A stretch of DNA of 47,862 nucleotides from Streptomyces coryli. Its GTDB lineage: Bacteria; Actinomycetota; Actinomycetes; Streptomycetales; Streptomycetaceae. The notes beneath the pieces are model-generated. The model was not told where the DNA came from, did not search any database, and saw nothing but the letters and a program-made list of their open reading frames with translations. The translations under genes were made by a program, and so were the position numbers. Below are positions 30,212-39,513 of the stretch, piece by piece. Position 1 is the first letter of the stretch. Every line of letters starts with the position of its first letter. The stretch spans positions 1 to 47,862 of the forward strand of contig NZ_JAAKZV010000034.1 of assembly GCF_011044975.1 (NCBI RefSeq), read 5' to 3'.

Positions 30212-30700
30212 CTGGACGGCCTCGCCACCCTCAACACGGCCACCCCCGCAGCCGCGGAGGCCGCGCTCGCCGCCTGCTGTGCCAGCCACCGCTGGGCGCG
30301 GCGGATCATCGAGCACCGCCCGTACCCCGACGTGTCCGCGCTGCTCGCCGCCGCCGATGAGGCGAGCTACGACCTGACGCCCGGGGATCTGGCGGAGGCG
30401 CTGATCAGCGAGCCGGCGCCGCTGCCCGCGGCGGCGGCGGTGCGCCCGTCGTCGCGGACGGCGCTGCGCGCGGCCCACGCCGCGTACGAGAGCCGCTTCG
30501 GCCACGCCTTCGTGCTGTGCCTGGACGGCTTCGCGGCGGACGAGCGTCTCGACCAGGTGCTGGCGGGCATCCGCACGCGCCTGGCGAACGAGCCGGAAGA
30601 GGAGCGGGCGGTGGCGAAGGAGGAGCTGCGGCGACTGGCGCGGGCGCGGTTACGGCGCTTGGTGACGACGGATTCGGACCGCTTGATCCCCTCAAGCTGA
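30212..30700 (+). CDS. 2-oxo-4-hydroxy-4-carboxy-5-ureidoimidazoline (OHCU) decarboxylase; apparent CTG start
   Basis: Third step of urate-to-allantoin conversion: stereospecific decarboxylation of OHCU to S-allantoin. The frame from 30212 gives 162 residues, the family length, with CCASHRWARRIIEHRPYPDV holding the catalytic His region and RTALRAAHAAYESRFGHAFV as the second conserved block. No ATG, GTG or TTG is in frame before 30332; starting there would delete 40 conserved residues. AAGGAG (30200-30205) is 6 nt before CTG, so CUG is the likely initiator. No other urate genes are in the window. Divergent from the hexosaminidase gene. Confidence 0.85.
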   Translation: MDGLATLNTATPAAAEAALAACCASHRWARRIIEHRPYPDVSALLAAADEASYDLTPGDLAEALISEPAPLPAAAAVRPSSRTALRAAHAAYESRFGHAFVLCLDGFAADERLDQVLAGIRTRLANEPEEERAVAKEELRRLARARLRRLVTTDSDRLIPSS

Positions 30701-30870
30701 GACATTCCGTAGGCCAGACGTGCCTGATCAATCACACTCGGCACCCCCTGACGGGTTAGCCGACACCCCGTCGATACGATGGCCCGTGGCCGGTGGACCG
30801 TACCCGGCCGGGCTGACGACCGACACCCTCATCGCCGGCAAAGCCCCTGTCCCGTTACCGGAGGAAATCC

Positions 30871-31251
30871 GTGCCGGCTGGAACGCTGTATCGCGGCCGC
30901 GAAGGCATGTGGTCCTGGGTGGCGCATCGCGTCACCGGCGTCCTCATCTTCTTCTTCTTGTTCGTCCACGTCCTCGACACCGCCCTCGTCCGCGTCTCCC
31001 CCGAGGCGTACGACGATGTCGTGGCGACCTACAAGACGCCCATCGTGGCCCTGCTTGAGTACGGCCTCGTAGCCGCCGTCCTCTTCCACGCGCTCAACGG
31101 CCTGCGCGTCATCGCCGTCGACTTCTGGTCGAAGGGTCCGCGCCTGCAGAAGCAGATGCTGTGGACCGTCGTCGGCATCTGGGTCGTGCTGATGGCCGGG
31201 GCGCTGTACCCCGTCCTCGGGCACGCTTTCCGCGAGCTGTTCGGGAGCTGA
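30871..31251 (+). CDS. sdhC: Succinate dehydrogenase cytochrome b556 subunit
   Basis: 126 residues, three transmembrane helices. Together with SdhD it anchors the complex and binds heme and quinone; GMWSWVAHRVTGVLIFFFLF holds the quinone-site Ser/Arg region and VHVLDTALV and FHALNGLRVI hold the candidate heme histidines. GTG start with GGAGGAAATCC upstream. First gene of sdhCDAB, 8 nt before sdhD. The 170-nt leader holds a GGGTTAGC...CACCCC stretch that resembles the GGGTTAAC elements of the glycan cluster and a TACGAT that could be the -10. Confidence 0.95.
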   Translation: MPAGTLYRGREGMWSWVAHRVTGVLIFFFLFVHVLDTALVRVSPEAYDDVVATYKTPIVALLEYGLVAAVLFHALNGLRVIAVDFWSKGPRLQKQMLWTVVGIWVVLMAGALYPVLGHAFRELFGS

Positions 31252-31259
31252 GCTGAGCC

Positions 31260-31727
31260 ATGACCACCTCTGACATCAAGCTGACGGGTTCCTCCTCGGA
31301 GATCTCCCCGGAGAACCCGGCCCCGGTCATCGAGGCCCCCCGGGCCCGTACCGCGAAGACCCCGAAGGCCACCCGCGGCAACTTCGAGATGTACGGCTGG
31401 CTCTTCATGCGCCTGTCCGGCATCGTCCTGGTCGTCCTGGTCATCGGCCACCTGCTGATCCAGCTGGTCCTGGACGGCGGCGTCTCGAAGGTGTCCTTCG
31501 CCTTCGTCGCCGGCCGCTGGGCCTCCCCGTTCTGGCAGGCCTGGGACCTGATCATGCTGTGGCTGGCGATGCTGCACGGCGCCAACGGCCTGCGCACGGT
31601 CATCAACGACTACGCCGAGCGGGACAACACCCGCTTCTGGCTGAAGATGCTGCTCTACGCGGCCACGATCTTCACCGTTCTCCTGGGCACGCTGGTGATC
31701 TTCACCTTCGACCCGAACATTCGCTGA
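31260..31727 (+). CDS. sdhD: Succinate dehydrogenase hydrophobic membrane anchor subunit
   Basis: 155 residues with a 45-residue polar N-terminal extension and three helices: WLFMRLSGIVLVVLVIGHLL, FWQAWDLIMLWLAMLHGANG and LLYAATIFTVLLGTLVIFTF. His in VIGHLL and LHGANG would ligate heme. In E. coli SdhD is shorter; the N-terminal extension is usual in actinobacteria. Part of the sdhCDAB operon, 25 nt before sdhA. Confidence 0.95.
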   Translation: MTTSDIKLTGSSSEISPENPAPVIEAPRARTAKTPKATRGNFEMYGWLFMRLSGIVLVVLVIGHLLIQLVLDGGVSKVSFAFVAGRWASPFWQAWDLIMLWLAMLHGANGLRTVINDYAERDNTRFWLKMLLYAATIFTVLLGTLVIFTFDPNIR

Positions 31728-31752
31728 CCCGGGACCGAGGTTCGAGACTCCC

Positions 31753-33507
31753 ATGCAGATCCACAAGTACGACACCGTGATCGTCGGCGCCGGCGGCGCG
31801 GGCATGCGCGCGGCCATCGAGTCGACGAAGCGCAGCCGCACCGCGGTGCTCACCAAGCTCTATCCGACCCGCTCCCACACCGGCGCCGCCCAGGGCGGCA
31901 TGGCCGCCGCCCTCGCGAACGTCGAGGAGGACAACTGGGAGTGGCACACCTTCGACACGATCAAGGGCGGCGACTACCTGGTCGACCAGGACGCCGCCGA
32001 GATCCTGGCGAAGGAGGCCATCGACTCGGTCCTGGACCTCGAGAAGATGGGCCTGCCGTTCAACCGCACCCCCGAGGGCCGGATCGACCAGCGCCGCTTC
32101 GGCGGCCACTCCCGTAACCACGGCGAGGCCCCGGTGCGCCGGTCCTGCTATGCCGCGGACCGCACGGGCCACATGATCCTCCAGACCCTGTACCAGAACT
32201 GCGTGAAGGAGGGCGTGGAGTTCTTCAACGAGTTCTACGTCCTCGACCAGCTGATCACCGAGGTCGACGGGGTCAAGCGGTCGGCGGGCGTCGTCGCGTA
32301 CGAGCTGGCCACCGGCGAGATCCACGTCTTCCAGGCGAAGGCGGTCGTCTACGCGTCCGGCGGCACCGGCAAGTTCTTCAAGGTGACGTCGAACGCCCAC
32401 ACGCTGACCGGTGACGGCCAGGCGTCCTGCTTCCGGCGCGGGATTCCGCTGGAGGACATGGAGTTCTTCCAGTTCCACCCGACCGGCATCTGGCGGATGG
32501 GCATCCTGCTGACGGAGGGCGCCCGCGGTGAGGGCGGCATCCTCCGTAACAAGGACGGCGAGCGCTTCATGGAGAAGTACGCGCCGGTGATGAAGGACCT
32601 GGCCTCGCGCGACGTGGTCTCCCGGTCCATCTACACGGAGATCCGGGAGGGGCGTGGGTGTGGCCCGGAGGGCGACCACGTCTACCTGGACCTGACCCAC
32701 CTGCCGCCGGAGCAGCTGGACGCGAAGCTCCCGGACATCACCGAGTTCGCGCGTACGTACCTGGGCATCGAGCCGTACACCGACCCGATCCCGATCCAGC
32801 CGACCGCGCACTACGCGATGGGCGGCATCCCGACGAACGTCGAGGGTGAGGTGCTCGCCGACAACACCACCGTCGTGCCGGGCCTCTACGCCGCCGGCGA
32901 GGTCGCGTGTGTGTCGGTGCACGGCGCCAACCGCCTCGGCACCAACTCGCTCCTCGACATCAACGTCTTCGGCCGCCGGGCCGGCATCGCCGCCGCGGAC
33001 TACGCCTCGAAGGCCGACTTCGTCGAGCTGCCGGAGAACCCGGCCGAGTTCGTCGCCACCGAGGTGGAGCGGCTGCGCGACGCCACCGGCGACGAGCGGG
33101 TGTCGGACATCCGGCGCGAGCTGCAGGAGTGCATGGACGCCAACGTGATGGTCTTCCGTACGGAGCAGACCATCAAGACGGCCGTCGAGAAGATCGGCGA
33201 GCTGCGCGCCCGCTACAAGAACGTCTCGGTGCAGGACAAGGGCAAGCGCTTCAACACCGACCTGCTGGAGGCCATCGAGCTGGGCAACCTGCTCGACCTG
33301 GCCGAGGTCATGGCGGTCTCGGCGCTGGCCCGCAAGGAGTCCCGCGGCGGTCACTACCGCGAGGACTACCCGAACCGCGACGACGTCAACTTCATGCGCC
33401 ACACCATGGCGTACCGCGAGACCGAGTCCGACGGCAGCGAGTCGATCCGCCTGGACTACAAGCCGGTCGTCACGACCCGCTACCAGCCGATGGAGCGTAA
33501 GTACTGA
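31753..33507 (+). CDS. sdhA: Succinate dehydrogenase flavoprotein subunit
   Basis: 584 residues. Oxidises succinate to fumarate with covalent FAD. FAD fold VIVGAGGAGMRAAIEST; flavin-attachment histidine in TRSHTGAAQGGMAAAL; substrate-site FQFHPTGIW and the catalytic Arg region GARGEGGILRN; HYAMGGIPTN; C-terminal RKESRGGHYREDYPNRDD. Cytoplasmic, bound to the membrane anchor through SdhB. Ends with TGATG overlap into sdhB. Length and motifs are those of the menaquinone-linked actinobacterial enzyme. Confidence 0.98.
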   Translation: MQIHKYDTVIVGAGGAGMRAAIESTKRSRTAVLTKLYPTRSHTGAAQGGMAAALANVEEDNWEWHTFDTIKGGDYLVDQDAAEILAKEAIDSVLDLEKMGLPFNRTPEGRIDQRRFGGHSRNHGEAPVRRSCYAADRTGHMILQTLYQNCVKEGVEFFNEFYVLDQLITEVDGVKRSAGVVAYELATGEIHVFQAKAVVYASGGTGKFFKVTSNAHTLTGDGQASCFRRGIPLEDMEFFQFHPTGIWRMGILLTEGARGEGGILRNKDGERFMEKYAPVMKDLASRDVVSRSIYTEIREGRGCGPEGDHVYLDLTHLPPEQLDAKLPDITEFARTYLGIEPYTDPIPIQPTAHYAMGGIPTNVEGEVLADNTTVVPGLYAAGEVACVSVHGANRLGTNSLLDINVFGRRAGIAAADYASKADFVELPENPAEFVATEVERLRDATGDERVSDIRRELQECMDANVMVFRTEQTIKTAVEKIGELRARYKNVSVQDKGKRFNTDLLEAIELGNLLDLAEVMAVSALARKESRGGHYREDYPNRDDVNFMRHTMAYRETESDGSESIRLDYKPVVTTRYQPMERKY

Positions 33508-34265
33508 TGAGCACTCCGACGATGGACAAGGTCGAGGCGGAGTCCGCCGCCTCGCCGTACATCACGGCCACCTTCCGGATCCGCCGCTTCAACCCGGAGA
33601 TCGCGGCCGAGGCGGTCTGGGAAGACTTCACGATCGAGATCGACCCGAAGGAGCGCGTCCTCGACGCCCTCCACAAGATCAAGTGGGATGTGGACGGCAC
33701 CCTGACCTTCCGCCGCTCCTGCGCCCACGGGATCTGCGGTTCGGACGCGATGCGCATCAACGGCCGCAACCGGCTGGCGTGCAAGACGCTGATCAAGGAC
33801 CTCAGCCCGGAGAAGCCGATCTCGGTCGAGCCGATCAAGGGGCTTACGGTCCTGAAGGACCTGGTCGTCGACATGGACCCGTTCTTCCAGGCGTACCGCG
33901 ATGTGATGCCGTTCCTGATCACGAGCGGCAATGAGCCGACGCGTGAGCGGCTGCAGTCGGCGGCGGACCGGGAGCGCTTCGACGACACGACGAAGTGCAT
34001 CCTGTGCGCGGCCTGCACGTCCTCGTGCCCGGTCTTCTGGAACGACGGCCAGTACTTCGGCCCGGCGGCGATCGTCAACGCCCACCGCTTCATCTTCGAC
34101 TCGCGCGACGAGGCGGGTGAGCAGCGGCTGGAGATCCTCAACGACCGCGACGGCGTGTGGCGCTGCCGTACGACCTTCAACTGCACCGACGCCTGCCCGC
34201 GCGGCATCGAGGTCACGAAGGCGATCCAGGAGGTCAAGCGGGCGCTGATCACCCGGCGCTTCTGA
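33507..34265 (+). CDS. sdhB: Succinate dehydrogenase iron-sulfur subunit
   Basis: 252 residues. Carries electrons from FAD to quinone through three clusters: [2Fe-2S] in SCAHGICGSDAMRINGRNRL plus a downstream Cys; [4Fe-4S] and [3Fe-4S] ligands in CILCAACTSSCP, and CTDACPRGIEV. The ATG overlaps the sdhA stop (TGATG). Last gene of the operon; a strong hairpin with a T-free tail follows at 34299. Confidence 0.98.
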   Translation: MSTPTMDKVEAESAASPYITATFRIRRFNPEIAAEAVWEDFTIEIDPKERVLDALHKIKWDVDGTLTFRRSCAHGICGSDAMRINGRNRLACKTLIKDLSPEKPISVEPIKGLTVLKDLVVDMDPFFQAYRDVMPFLITSGNEPTRERLQSAADRERFDDTTKCILCAACTSSCPVFWNDGQYFGPAAIVNAHRFIFDSRDEAGEQRLEILNDRDGVWRCRTTFNCTDACPRGIEVTKAIQEVKRALITRRF

Positions 34266-34298
34266 CCTCGCGGCCGGCTCCGGCGTTTTTCCACCAGG

Positions 34299-34329: not shown

Positions 34330-34408
34330 TCTCGTGCGTTTGCGGTAGCGTTCCCGAAATCGCCCGGCCATTCGGATTGTCGGGGCGAAAAGTGGGGGGA
34401 ATCGGCAG

Positions 34409-35116
34409 ATGCTCTGTGTTTCGTGTCAGGCGCGCACGGTGTGCTGTCTGCACCGAGCCGTTGCCGAGACCGGGGGACCATCCGTTCTTCACCGGGGCGC
34501 CGGCCGCGGCGGAGGCCGGGCATCCGCCGCCACCGCCGCCGCCCGTCAGTCCGGCCTTTCGGCCGCTTCGCGGGCTCGCCATCGCGCTCACCGTGCTGCT
34601 GATCGTCGGGGCCGTGGTGGATCTGGTCTCGCTGGCCATCGGTGTGCACATGCGTGACCTGCTGGACCGGATCATGACCGCCTCGGACAGCGAGATCGAC
34701 AGGGCCGACACCCTGTACGGGCTGGCCGGCATCGTGCAGACGATCTGCTTCCTTGCCATCGCCACGGTGTTCATCGTCTGGTTCCATCGCGCCCGCAAGA
34801 ACGCCGAGTTGTTCGACGTGGGGCAGCTGCGCAGCTCTGCCGGCTGGGCCATCGGGTCCTGGTTCATCCCGATCGGCAACCTGGCGGGGGGCGCCCGGCA
34901 GGCCTGGGGCCGGTCACGGCGTGGTGGCTGACCTTCATCGTGGCTTCGTGGAGCGGATGGGTCGCGGGGACCCGGTACCAGGCCGCCGACACGGCCGACG
35001 CCGTCAGCTCCGCGACGGCCGGGTACACGGCCGCCGTGCTGGCGATCCTGTACATACGGAAGCTCAGCGGCATGCAGGAGACCAAGCAGCACGCGCTGGC
35101 CGGCCAGTACTTCTGA
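34409..35116 (+). pseudogene. DUF4328-type membrane protein gene broken by two frame changes
   Basis: An N-terminal zinc-ribbon start MLCVSCQART (ATG 34409, GGGGGGA upstream) lies in one frame. The second CxxC (RCAVCTEPLPRPGDHPFF), a Pro-rich linker and the first two to three helices (AIALTVLLIVGAVVDLVSLA; FLAIATVFIVWFHRARKNAE; GWAIGSWFIPIGNL) lie in the next. The last part (TAWWLTFIVASWSGWV ... AAVLAILYIRKLSGMQ) returns to the first frame and ends TGA at 35116. The two shifts, near 34437 and 34895, compensate, and about 15-25 residues normally found after IGNL seem lost. It is either a decayed gene or a sequence error at both points. Confidence 0.7.
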
Positions 35117-35151
35117 CGGTCACCGGCTCCGGCTTCGGCTTCGGCTCCGGC

Positions 35152-35430
35152 TCACTGGCCGAAGGTGCCGTACAGCGCGACCGCCAGCGCCAGCAGCCCC
35201 GTCAGCGCGGCGATCGAGGGCAGCGGCCAGCGGGCCTGTTCCAGGATCTCCAGCCGGTGGTCGTGGTCGTCGAGGACCTTCTCGGCCTGGTCGGCGCGCT
35301 GCAGCAGCAGCGCGAGGTCGCCGCGGGTGGTCGCGAAGCCGACGTCGACGGCGCTGCGCAGGCGCTCCAACTCCAGCGCTACGCCGTGGGCTTCGGCGAC
35401 ACCGAGGGCTTCCGGTGGTGGTTCGGTCAT
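35152..35430 (-). CDS. Small membrane protein (92 aa), apparently LexA-controlled
   Basis: No family recognised. Residues 15-65 are charged and heptad-like (LELERLRSAVDVGFATTRGD, LLLQRADQAEKVLDDHDHRL), so a coiled coil is likely; residues about 70-90 (LPSIAALTGLLALAVALYGT) form one C-terminal transmembrane helix with five polar residues outside. The ATG follows GGGAG by 9-11 nt. Just upstream lie TCGAACGAGCATTCGA, close to the actinobacterial SOS box, and a perfect TATAAT. A tail-anchored coiled-coil protein made only after DNA damage suggests a division or membrane function, by analogy with SOS-induced small membrane inhibitors; that is inference. Confidence 0.8.
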   Translation of the reverse strand: MTEPPPEALGVAEAHGVALELERLRSAVDVGFATTRGDLALLLQRADQAEKVLDDHDHRLEILEQARWPLPSIAALTGLLALAVALYGTFGQ

Positions 35431-35445
35431 GGGGCAGGACTCCCT

Positions 35446-35461
35446 TCGAACGAGCATTCGA
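35446..35461 (-). promoter_or_regulatory. LexA (SOS) box
   Basis: TCGAACGAGCATTCGA matches the actinobacterial LexA consensus TCGAAC-N4-GTTCGA at 11 of 12 fixed positions. It overlaps the expected transcription start of the small membrane protein gene, an ideal place for repression. Confidence 0.75.
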
Positions 35462-35466
35462 TTATA
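35461..35466 (-). promoter_or_regulatory. Perfect -10 box TATAAT
   Basis: TATAAT on the minus strand touches the upstream end of the SOS box and lies 30 nt before the ATG of the small membrane protein. The -35 region (AGCAGA at 17 nt) is weak. Such an AT-rich hexamer is rare in this sequence. Confidence 0.65.
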
Positions 35467-35487
35467 GCTGAGTCGAGGCCCTTTCTG

Positions 35488-35515
35488 CTGGCATATGCCG
35501 CCCCGGTGATACCGT
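35488..35515 (+). promoter_or_regulatory. Promoter of the SDR gene, probably leaderless
   Basis: CTGGCA, 16 nt, then TACCGT, with only 6 nt between the -10 and the ATG at 35522. No SD precedes that ATG, so the transcript likely starts at or near the A of ATG. Confidence 0.45.
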
Positions 35516-35521
35516 GCGCCG

Positions 35522-36286
35522 ATGTCTGACATCGCACCACCCCCGCGCCGCGGCGTCCTGGTCACCGGCGCCTCCCGCGGCATCGGCCGCGCCGTCGCCA
35601 CCGCCTTCGCCGCCGCGGGCGACCGGGTCGCGGTCCACTACGCGTCGCGGCGCGAAGACGCCGAGGCCACGCTGCAGGGGCTGGCGGGAGACGGGCACGT
35701 ACTCGTCGGCGGCGACGTGTCCGATCCGGCGGCGGCGGCCCGTATCGTCGACGAGGCGGTGGCGGGGCTGGGCGGCACGCTGCACGTGCTGGTCAACAAC
35801 GCCGCCGTGAATCTGGCGCAGCCGATCGCCGAGATCTCGTACGAGGACTGGCAGGCGGTCTGGGAGCGGACGGTCGCGGTGAATCTGACCGGCACCGCGA
35901 ATGTCTCGTACTGCGCCGCCCGCCACATGATCGACGCGGGCGTCCGGGACGGCCGGATCGTCAACGTCGGCTCCCGCGGCGCGTATCGGGGCGAGCCCGA
36001 CCACCCCGCGTACGGCGCGACCAAGGCCGGCGTCCACGCGCTCGGCCAGTCCCTCGCCGTGGCGCTCGCGCCGCACGGCATCGCGGTCGCGTCCGTCGCG
36101 CCGGGCTTCGTGGCGACCGAGCGGGTCGCGGACCGGGTGACGGAGGAGACGCTGCGGCAGAGCCCGTTCGGCCGGGTGGCACGCCCCGAGGAGATCGCCG
36201 CCGCCGTCCGGCACCTCGCGTCGCCGGAGGCGACGTGGAGCTCGGGCGCGGTGCTGGACGTCAACGGGGCGTCGTATTTGAGGTGA
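35522..36286 (+). CDS. Short-chain dehydrogenase/reductase
   Basis: 254 residues of the classical SDR type (FabG-like). Cofactor loop TGASRGIGRA; the HYASRRED segment after beta-2 suggests NADP(H); NNAAVN; Ser and catalytic Tyr-Lys in VGSRGAYRGEPDHPAYGATK; C-terminal APGFVATE and SGAVLDVNGA. It reduces a keto or oxidises a hydroxy group of an unknown substrate in the cytoplasm. It is divergent from the LexA-box gene (91 nt) and convergent with the next gene, with 9 nt between. Whether LexA also affects it is open, as its -35 lies about 30 nt from the box. Confidence 0.93.
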   Translation: MSDIAPPPRRGVLVTGASRGIGRAVATAFAAAGDRVAVHYASRREDAEATLQGLAGDGHVLVGGDVSDPAAAARIVDEAVAGLGGTLHVLVNNAAVNLAQPIAEISYEDWQAVWERTVAVNLTGTANVSYCAARHMIDAGVRDGRIVNVGSRGAYRGEPDHPAYGATKAGVHALGQSLAVALAPHGIAVASVAPGFVATERVADRVTEETLRQSPFGRVARPEEIAAAVRHLASPEATWSSGAVLDVNGASYLR

Positions 36287-37800: not shown

Positions 37801-37816
37801 CTTGAACACGTTCAAG
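37801..37816. promoter_or_regulatory. TetR-type operator 1
   Basis: CTTGAACACGTTCAAG, 7-nt arms around AC. It covers TTGAAC (37802-37807), which stands 17 nt from TACAGT (37825-37830), a plausible -35/-10 pair for the three-gene operon ending in a TetR gene. Confidence 0.75.
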
Positions 37817-37824
37817 AAGAGGGC

Positions 37825-37830
37825 TACAGT
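37825..37830 (+). promoter_or_regulatory. -10 TACAGT of the TetR operon
   Basis: Spaced 17 nt from TTGAAC inside operator 1 and followed by operator 2 downstream of the start site. An inner inverted repeat (AAGAGGGCTAC/GTAGCCTCTT) flanks it. Confidence 0.6.
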
Positions 37831-37847
37831 CCTACCCGTAGCCTCTT

Positions 37848-37861
37848 TTGAACACGTTCAA
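37848..37861. promoter_or_regulatory. TetR-type operator 2
   Basis: TTGAACACGTTCAA, identical to the core of operator 1, 46 nt centre to centre, just upstream of the SD of the first gene. Two sites around a start site allow cooperative autorepression. Confidence 0.75.
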
Positions 37862-37879
37862 GAAAGGGCGTGGCAAGGC

Positions 37880-38284
37880 ATGGATCTCACCGTCACCACC
37901 TACGTCGTCTACATCGGCGTCAGCCTCGGCCTGACCGTCTGGGTCGCCCGCACCCTCAGCCGGAACGGGCAGATCTTCCTCGCCGACGTGCTGCGCGGCA
38001 GCGAGACGCTCGCGGCCGCCGTCAACCACCTGCTGGTGGTTGGCTTCTACCTGGTCAACCTCGGCTTCGTCGCCCTGTACCTGAAGACCGCCGACGCCGT
38101 CGACGACGGCCGCGGCCTCGTCGAGGCGCTCTCGGTGAAGCTCGGGGTCGTCCTGCTCGTGCTCGGCGTCATGCACCTCGGCAACGTCTACGTCCTCAGC
38201 CGCATCCGCCGCCGCGGCCTGCTCGAGCGCGAGCAGGTGCCGCCGGTGCAGCCGGACGCGTGGACCGACCCGGCGCGGGCCTGA
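37880..38284 (+). CDS. Integral membrane protein of unknown function
   Basis: 134 residues with three hydrophobic helices (VVYIGVSLGLTVWVARTL; HLLVVGFYLVNLGFVALYL; VKLGVVLLVLGVMHLGNVYV) and a basic/acidic C-terminal tail. Family not recognised by name. ATG at 37880 is preferred; an earlier in-frame start at 37802 lies within operator 1. First gene of an operon with a DCC-type protein and a TetR regulator; its stop is 2 nt before the next ATG. Confidence 0.85.
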   Translation: MDLTVTTYVVYIGVSLGLTVWVARTLSRNGQIFLADVLRGSETLAAAVNHLLVVGFYLVNLGFVALYLKTADAVDDGRGLVEALSVKLGVVLLVLGVMHLGNVYVLSRIRRRGLLEREQVPPVQPDAWTDPARA

Positions 38285-38286
38285 GC

Positions 38287-38742
38287 ATGCGGGCCCCGAC
38301 CGCCGTCCACGGGCTGACCGTCCTCTACGACGCCGACTGCAAGCTGTGCACCTTCGTGCGCAACTGGCTCTCCGGACAGGCCCAGCTCGTCCGTCTCACC
38401 CTCATCCCCTGCGGCTCGGTCACGGCCCGCCGCCGCTTCCCGGGCCTCGACCACGCTGCCACCCGTGAGGAGATCACCGTGGTCGGGGACGGCGGGCAGG
38501 TCTATCGGGGCGCCTCCGCCTGGATCGTCTGCCTGTGGGCGCTGGCCAAGTACCGCCCCCTCGCCCACCGCCTCAGCTCCGGCGCCGGCGCGCAGGCCGC
38601 CCGGGCGACGGTGCTGGCGGCGGCGCAGTGGCGGGGGGCGGCTCGACCGTGGGGCGGGGGCGCGTACGCGGACGGCTGGCGCTACGCCCCGGCGACCGGC
38701 TGGTCCCGGACCTGCCCCGACGGGTCCTGTGCCCCCGGTTAG
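38287..38742 (+). CDS. DCC family (DUF393) thiol-disulfide oxidoreductase-like protein
   Basis: 151 residues. The family motif LYDADCKLCTFVRNWLS (Asp-x-x-Cys-x-x-Cys) starts the protein after a short leader, in a thioredoxin-like fold. Later elements are EITVVGDGGQVYRGASAWIV and WALAKYRPLAHRLS; two more cysteines occur near the end (TCPDGSC), unusual for the family. Presumably transfers electrons or rearranges disulfides. Co-transcribed with the membrane protein before it and the TetR gene after it. Confidence 0.85.
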   Translation: MRAPTAVHGLTVLYDADCKLCTFVRNWLSGQAQLVRLTLIPCGSVTARRRFPGLDHAATREEITVVGDGGQVYRGASAWIVCLWALAKYRPLAHRLSSGAGAQAARATVLAAAQWRGAARPWGGGAYADGWRYAPATGWSRTCPDGSCAPG

Positions 38743-38751
38743 GCTCGACCT

Positions 38752-39513
38752 GTGGACGACGCAGTGCCGACCGAGAAGGCCTCTGGCTCGCTTGCCAAGG
38801 GGGAGCAGACTCGCACGTTGATTCTGGAGACCGCTCTGCGGCTTTTTCAGGAGCGGGGTTATGACAAGACGACGATGCGGGCTATCGCTAGTGAGGCGGG
38901 GGTGTCGGTTGGTAATGCGTACTACTACTTCAAGAGCAAAGAGCACCTGATCCAGGGCTTTTACGATCGGATCGGTGAGGCGCACGCTGCCGCCGTGCAG
39001 GACGTGCTGGCTCGTGAGACCGATCTCGCCGCCCGACTGGAGGGGGTGCTGCTCGCGTGGCTGGATATTGCGGCGCCGTATCACGAGTTCGCGGCGCAGT
39101 TCTTCAAGAACGCCGCCGATCCGAACAGTCCGCTCAGCCCCTTCTCGCCCGAGTCCGAGGAGCCGCGTGAGGCGACGGTCGAGCTGCACCGGCAGGTGCT
39201 GGCGGGGTCGAAGGCTGCGCTCGTGCCCGAGCTGCGGGAGTTGATGCCGCAGCTGATGTGGCTGCATCAGATGGGGATCGTGCTGTATTGGGTCTTCGAT
39301 CGCACCGAGGACTGCGAGCGGACGCGGCGGCTGGTGCAGCGGTCGTCGCCGATGGTGGCGCGCGCCATCGATCTGTCCCGGTATCGGCTGCTTCGGCCGC
39401 TCGCCCGCGAAGTGGCGGACATCCTGCATGACTTCATTCTTCCGGCGGCGGGCATGGCCGCGGAGAGGGCTCCGGCGACGGCCCGGCGGAAGACGCGGCG
39501 CAAGAAGGACTGA
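38752..39513 (+). CDS. TetR-family transcriptional regulator
   Basis: 253 residues. N-terminal helix-turn-helix LILETALRLFQERGYDKTTM then AIASEAGVSVGNAYYYFKSK; the larger C-terminal part is the ligand/dimer domain. A basic tail (ARRKTRRKKD) ends the protein. GTG start 9 nt after the DCC gene. Probably binds the TTGAACACGTTCAA sites at 37801-37861 and represses its own operon; ligand unknown. Confidence 0.92.
   Translation: MDDAVPTEKASGSLAKGEQTRTLILETALRLFQERGYDKTTMRAIASEAGVSVGNAYYYFKSKEHLIQGFYDRIGEAHAAAVQDVLARETDLAARLEGVLLAWLDIAAPYHEFAAQFFKNAADPNSPLSPFSPESEEPREATVELHRQVLAGSKAALVPELRELMPQLMWLHQMGIVLYWVFDRTEDCERTRRLVQRSSPMVARAIDLSRYRLLRPLAREVADILHDFILPAAGMAAERAPATARRKTRRKKD

Follow-up and report, generated by a model that had tools for sequence, protein, structure and literature searches.

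Why should a Streptomyces chromosome carry a single small membrane-type gene behind what looks like an SOS promoter, and how did such a gene come to stand between sdhCDAB and a TetR gene? We examined this question in the window, by which we mean the whole stretch of 47,862 bases of DNA that was analysed. We consider it probable that the gene is the last member of a lysis cassette (endolysin, holin, family protein) left behind by a decayed, SOS-boxed tail-like cluster, and an unclassified SOS-boxed gene thereby becomes a testable case of weapon decay. The features of the window on which the argument draws are as follows.

30230..34281, plus strand: sdhCDAB, the left flank, 84.6% identical at the DNA level in genome G466, where a complete tail-like cluster lies nearby (DNA alignment)
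35152..35430, minus strand: gene for a phrog_5225-family lysis-cassette protein of 92 aa, tail-anchored coiled-coil type (ORF call, PHROGs match, relatives)
35158..35226, minus strand: residues 69-91, hydrophobic C-terminal helix and putative membrane anchor (model; insertion judged from composition)
35230..35415, minus strand: residues 6-67, a single long helix containing the family block VDVGFATTRGDLALLLQRADQ (AlphaFold2 model and alignments)
35440..35445, minus strand: ribosome-binding site AGGGAG, with the ATG 9 nt further (sequence reading)
35446..35461, no strand assigned: SOS (LexA) box-like palindrome TCGAATGCTCGTTCGA in the minus-strand reading, one mismatch to the consensus (motif scan; boxes in relatives)
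35461..35466, minus strand: -10-like TATAAT, one base common with the box (sequence reading; no -35 match)
37801..39403, plus strand: right flank, a gene for a 134-aa membrane-type protein and a TetR gene (Pfam), with homologues on the opposite flank of the cluster in G466 (alignment)

The gene, its protein and its promoter

The reading frame of 92 codons runs on the minus strand from an ATG at 35430 to a stop codon ending at 35152 (window protein P0001). In the AlphaFold2 model (mean pLDDT 87) a helix over residues 6-67 is followed by a second over residues 69-91, which begins straight after the RWP of a conserved RWPL, and this predicted fold agrees with a coiled coil followed by one C-terminal membrane helix. 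The first-pass annotation of this DNA had described a charged heptad-like stretch and one C-terminal helix, and the two-helix model depicts the same arrangement. It had also recognised no described family, which holds for Pfam and NCBIfam, where the protein has zero matches even at E 10, but not for PHROGs, where it matches phrog_5225 along its full length (E 2.9e-22, residues 13-91 on positions 4-90 of the 92-position profile). This phage family, annotated as being of unknown function, is matched by all 20 of the aligned members. A PADLOC search for anti-phage defence gave weak unrelated matches only, and the two weak matches of the window protein among solved structures (E 0.0026 and 0.76) were set aside. 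YneA/ChiZ-type SOS division inhibitors have a LysM domain; the window protein, which matches no Pfam family at E up to 10, was not assigned to this type.

Upstream of the gene, on its own strand, the sequence reads CTATAATCGAATGCTCGTTCGAAGGGAGTCCTGCCCCATG. The consensus used was the actinobacterial LexA box TCGAAC-N4-GTTCGA, from which the palindrome at 35446-35461 had been said to differ at one base; the motif scan confirms this, and the palindrome is the sole site with at most one mismatch across the window. Shuffled versions of the window would hold 0.12 such sites on average, and since 12 of 100 shuffles had one, chance could account for a single box of this quality at some point in the window. 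It is the position of the box, in the 91-bp gap between the 92-aa gene and the SDR gene, that makes a chance origin unlikely. The box adjoins a perfect TATAAT, with which it shares one base as read from the sequence, and the expected start site therefore lies inside it, in line with the earlier description. No -35 hexamer fits, and a consensus scan of positions 34900-35700 gave 0 promoters. There is also a perfect 10-base palindrome, GGCATATGCC, at 35490-35499, upstream of the promoter.

Relatives in phages and in chromosomal tail-like clusters

Among 50,697 phage records there are 38 relatives of the family gene, all in Streptomyces phages. Five of these phages were opened (SV1, Chymera, Ignacio, Tubberson and Alderaan), and in all five the order is endolysin, a small gene and then the family gene, which overlaps the small gene by 4 nt. 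The small gene is annotated as "holin" in Alderaan, as "membrane protein" in Tubberson and as "hypothetical" in the other three, and a relative on a Streptomyces plasmid follows a gene named holin without overlap. Because the relatives directly follow endolysin and holin-like genes in phages as well as in tail-like clusters, a role in a lysis cassette is the direct reading of their context. The family gene can thus be named as a conserved putative partner of the holin gene, one to which the libraries searched give no function.

The genome scan found at least 47 loci with the family gene, 46 in Streptomyces and one in Yinghuangia, and an endolysin match lies upstream of it in 32 of the 47 loci listed. 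The cluster at locus L099, which spans ~11 kb, begins with a gene whose product has a zinc-ribbon-like end (by eye), a MerR-like gene, a tail tube protein and two tail chaperones, continues with a short tape measure protein, two genes (272 and 800 aa) without a family match and a fibre-type gene, and ends with an endolysin of the Amidase_2 type, a holin that weakly resembles the r1t type and, last, the family gene, which overlaps the holin gene by 4 nt. When the 20 open frames of this 19.9-kb stretch were compared with PHROGs, no capsid, portal, terminase or integrase was found; a secreted-type protein encoded downstream weakly matches 'virion structural' and tail-fibre families, which we read as a repeat-domain match. 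The clusters are apparently headless and siphophage-tail-like, head genes having been checked in one of them, L099. Those at the dnaK locus adjoin the dnaK-dnaJ genes or a gene for an ABC-transporter substrate-binding protein. Nine further stretches (L134-L142) hold larger clusters that likewise terminate in endolysin, holin and an SV1 gp23-like gene. Eight of the nine have an SOS-like site with no more than one mismatch, in most cases within the cluster, and two other stretches (L143 and L144) end before the lysis genes. At L034/L086 the match to the endolysin gene falls into four separate parts, as would be expected of a broken gene. From these loci it seems that Streptomyces chromosomes can carry an SOS-boxed tail-like cluster equipped with a lysis module of its own, and no description of such a cluster turned up in the available portions of one open-licence literature library.

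Boxes in the relatives were called strict if they had at most one mismatch in 16 positions or a perfect 14-base core, a definition under which the background, taken from the 248,541 bp that lie downstream of the family gene in the 47 loci, is 2 sites. A strict box lies 8-11.5 kb upstream of the family gene in 11 of the 14 clusters examined, before the first cluster gene in eight and inside the cluster in three (L092, L094 and L098), where it is found between the tail tube and tape measure genes. Strict boxes are absent upstream in the clusters L102 and L103 (S. zagrosensis, close kin) and L107, the last of which has a 2-mismatch site, and in G470 and G486 the head of the cluster carries a perfect box. 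One-mismatch SOS-like boxes also occur just downstream of the family gene at L020, L021, L072 and L075.

At 14 loci of the dnaK type the family gene is kept and the rest of the cluster is lost or nearly lost; one of these, L041, retains a fibre fragment and is placed at the dnaK locus by its ABC gene alone, and the 14 exclude L097, which has a box about 525 bp upstream but has kept endolysin fragments. Nine of these solo copies have a strict box within 530 bp, the distance to the start codon used ranging from 4 to 527 bp (the 4-bp case is L016, whose more likely start is a later ATG that would give about 25). The box is 1.3 and 2.4 kb away at L038 and L041, and the solo copies L004, L015 and L095, which form one clade, have no strict box. 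The first-pass annotation had proposed conservation of the box in orthologous loci as a check, and the outcome is divided, in that the nine copies keep it close by and five of the 14 are without a strict box within 1 kb. Its claim of an SOS-type promoter is backed by the strict boxes of both the clusters and the solo copies, and SOS control of the window gene is likely as judged from the sequence.

The window locus and the fate of solo copies

In G466 the family gene lies about 5.5 kb beyond sdhCDAB, in the same orientation and at 77% to the window copy, and on its upstream side come the full cluster, a 2-mismatch box and, after these, homologues of the right flank of the window. Since G466 has such an arrangement, a full cluster would once have been present at the window locus, between sdhCDAB and the TetR gene. 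For 12 of the 13 cluster queries no match in the window had an E value below 0.02, so that none of the other 12 cluster genes is left there, and because adjacent endolysin and holin genes are absent, the window gene is a remnant and not a cassette. In a small tree (29 chosen rows, without L130) the window copy groups with the copies of L037 and G466 (99/99), both of which sit in full clusters. An origin as a remnant of the lysis cassette of a tail-like cluster is well supported. The window box may not be the head promoter of the G466 cluster, because the flanks of the two differ when compared by eye. In the 12 best of 297 genomes with relatives of the SDR gene (L108-L119, 1.5 kb on each side, four of them also taken as longer stretches, L126-L129), no family gene lies beside the SDR gene, and the S. 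zagrosensis cluster has no synteny with the flanks of the window. Between sdhB and the 92-aa gene there is a DUF4328-like gene (34377-35117, plus strand), apparently split across two frames near 34900.

The branch that leads to the window copy has about 18.4 nonsynonymous and 9.1 synonymous changes, a ratio near 0.8 by three-point arithmetic with L037 and G466 as the reference, and neutral drift is therefore not rejected for this copy. Two of its substitutions, D50E and R65Q, are at positions invariant in 78 relatives, and selection aimed at conserved positions was not significant on this branch (P 0.06 to 0.29). The window copy thus appears intact, yet relaxed or adapting. The branch ratio and the two altered positions, together with the loss of an otherwise conserved tryptophan in the dnaK-locus solo copy L030, are what would be expected of a decaying relic without function in the window organism, one that still has its frame and box solely because it began to decay recently. 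We regard such a relic as unlikely, however, in that roughly 27 inferred changes have left the 92 open codons, the one-mismatch box, the TATAAT and the ribosome-binding site undamaged, the ten changes counted on the branch are mostly conservative, and other solo clades are clearly constrained.

The evidence for constraint comes from the wider family. The alignment kept 81 of 89 sequences (L008, L030, L059, L060, L061, L067, L085 and L088 were left out), and removal of 16 near-duplicates gave a tree of 65 rows. On this tree the solo label requires 8 changes, at least 4 of them forced by well-supported branches, a count to which the debatable labelling of L041 (fibre fragment) and L076 (endolysin fragments) as cassettes may add. 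Solo copies seem to have arisen repeatedly. In pairs from two solo clades pN/pS is 0 to 0.13 in five of six cases and 0.26, not significant, in the sixth; the pairs have 6-17 synonymous and 0-5 nonsynonymous changes, except for one with 3 and 2. Because of these low ratios the family gene would be constrained when alone, if those clades were solo throughout.

Some relative of the family gene is present in 281 of 392 Streptomyces genomes at E 0.001, a tail tube protein in 77 at 1e-55 and some endolysin match in 336 at E 1e-60. Among the matches listed, the subfamily to which the window gene belongs (63% identity or more) occurs in 29 genomes, and these include every one of the 17 whose endolysin is of the cluster type (at least 70% identity), both identity cuts being our own choice. 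The other 12 subfamily genomes, again among the matches listed, have no endolysin or only pieces of one, mostly within 1.5 kb upstream. It looks as if the last gene of the cassette is preferentially retained. A strict asymmetry in favour of the family gene is weakened by more distantly related endolysin-type genes (61-65% identity), which were without cassette genes at all eight loci opened, and lone survival is thus not unique to the family gene. At L145-L152 Chymera-type endolysin genes stand by themselves, and the 18 kb around them hold neither tail genes nor a holin or partner gene.

A phage-type lysis-cassette gene appears to have been kept, often with a damage promoter, after loss of the cluster in several lineages. 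Several Streptomyces lineages might have lost an SOS-inducible tail-like weapon and kept its final membrane gene, in most cases together with the SOS promoter, as a self-protection factor or as a domesticated damage-induced effector, a generalisation in which we place little confidence. For the window gene itself this would mean an orphan immunity or anti-lysis factor, one that protects against the organism's own or kindred tail-like particles or restrains the holin, and that was kept after the weapon was lost because non-producers still need protection. The repeated changes to the solo label and the purifying selection within the two solo clades would fit such a factor, as would the imbalance among the matches listed in the 392 genomes, where 12 have the subfamily gene without an intact cluster-type endolysin and the converse is seen in 0 of 17, and it would account for the joint keeping of gene and box. 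But the distant-type endolysins persist alone too, the labelling of L041 and L076 may inflate the count of changes, and the weapon is itself a putative one, and we think an immunity function doubtful. We know of no immunity protein of non-contractile tailocins; an orphan immunity gene, if this were true, would encode a kind of protein not known for such particles.

The proposal of the first-pass annotation that the protein acts on cell division or septation, which we take to mean an SOS-induced inhibitor and to which a co-option from the phage protein might be added, could draw on the SOS-type box, the small membrane-type product and the statement, in the part of the S. venezuelae study available, that clear homologues of known SOS division inhibitors are missing in Streptomyces (PMC9380542), but it is highly improbable given that family and context are those of a lysis cassette and that Pfam finds no domain of a known division inhibitor in 20 family members.

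Proposed mechanism and comparison with known systems

According to the lysis-cassette remnant model that we prefer, the tail, endolysin and holin genes would have been lost from the window locus and the family gene would have stayed with its SOS-type promoter. LexA bound at 35446-35461 would cover the start site, and DNA damage would turn the gene on through RecA-triggered cleavage of LexA. The protein would then insert via its C-terminal helix, with the coiled coil in the cytoplasm, where it may oligomerise. In intact cassettes it might work alongside the translationally coupled holin, in an accessory role or as a second holin-like protein, and time or help the opening of the membrane; the gene order and the 4-nt overlap support this putative partnership. 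The lone window copy probably has a weakened membrane activity or none.

The SV1 gp23 protein and its relatives (phrog_5225; Chymera 22, Ignacio 22, Tubberson 24 and Alderaan 32) belong to the same sequence family as the window protein, and both have an N-terminal helical part, a junction of the RWPL/RWPLA type and a C-terminal hydrophobic stretch. They differ in that the chromosomal subfamily has the block VDVGFATTRGDLALLLQRADQ where SV1 has ETGFARVDGSLALLVQRGDQ, and in that the SV1 gp23 group comes last in an array of endolysin, holin-like gene and family gene, whereas the window copy is alone beside an SOS-type box. XhlA, a lysis protein of the Bacillus phage PBSX, is likewise a small coiled coil with a C-terminal membrane helix, and the window protein resembles it in this predicted architecture, as its relatives do in their lysis-cassette setting. 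Membership of the XhlA family (PF10779) was rejected, as one of 20 members matched at E 0.09 and the window protein did not match. The cluster of the relatives, a candidate tailocin, resembles the F-type (non-contractile) tailocins in its tail, fibre and lysis genes, in the SOS-type box that it usually carries and, in L099, in the absence of a head gene; the window is without any structural gene.

The LexA regulon of S. venezuelae, as defined by ChIP-seq and RNA-seq, includes a cluster, predicted to be a prophage and encoding a tail fibre, that is reported, in the available part of that study, to be 526-fold up with mitomycin C (PMC9380542). The box type is the same as that of the window, and the prophage cluster, as far as the available part describes it, is only a possible counterpart; its exact 14-base boxes had no match in the 11 clusters scanned. 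For S. ambofaciens, the available part of another study mentions that a holin gene and a phage tail gene are expressed outside a proviral context (PMC11302927). In the mycobacteriophage LysF1b system a one-helix and a two-helix holin-like protein are both needed for efficient lysis, according to the part of the report available (PMC13056207). The window protein cannot be placed in the LysF1b/DUF2746 family (PF10874), in that the membrane helix of LysF1b is N-terminal whereas the predicted one of the window protein is C-terminal, and PF10874 is not among the Pfam matches of 20 members. Both proteins nevertheless combine one membrane helix with a charged cytoplasmic part, and LysF1b has as its partner a two-helix holin-like protein (PMC13056207, available part). 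By analogy, and within what that part of the report covers, the LysF1b pair would be the closest studied functional parallel that we encountered.
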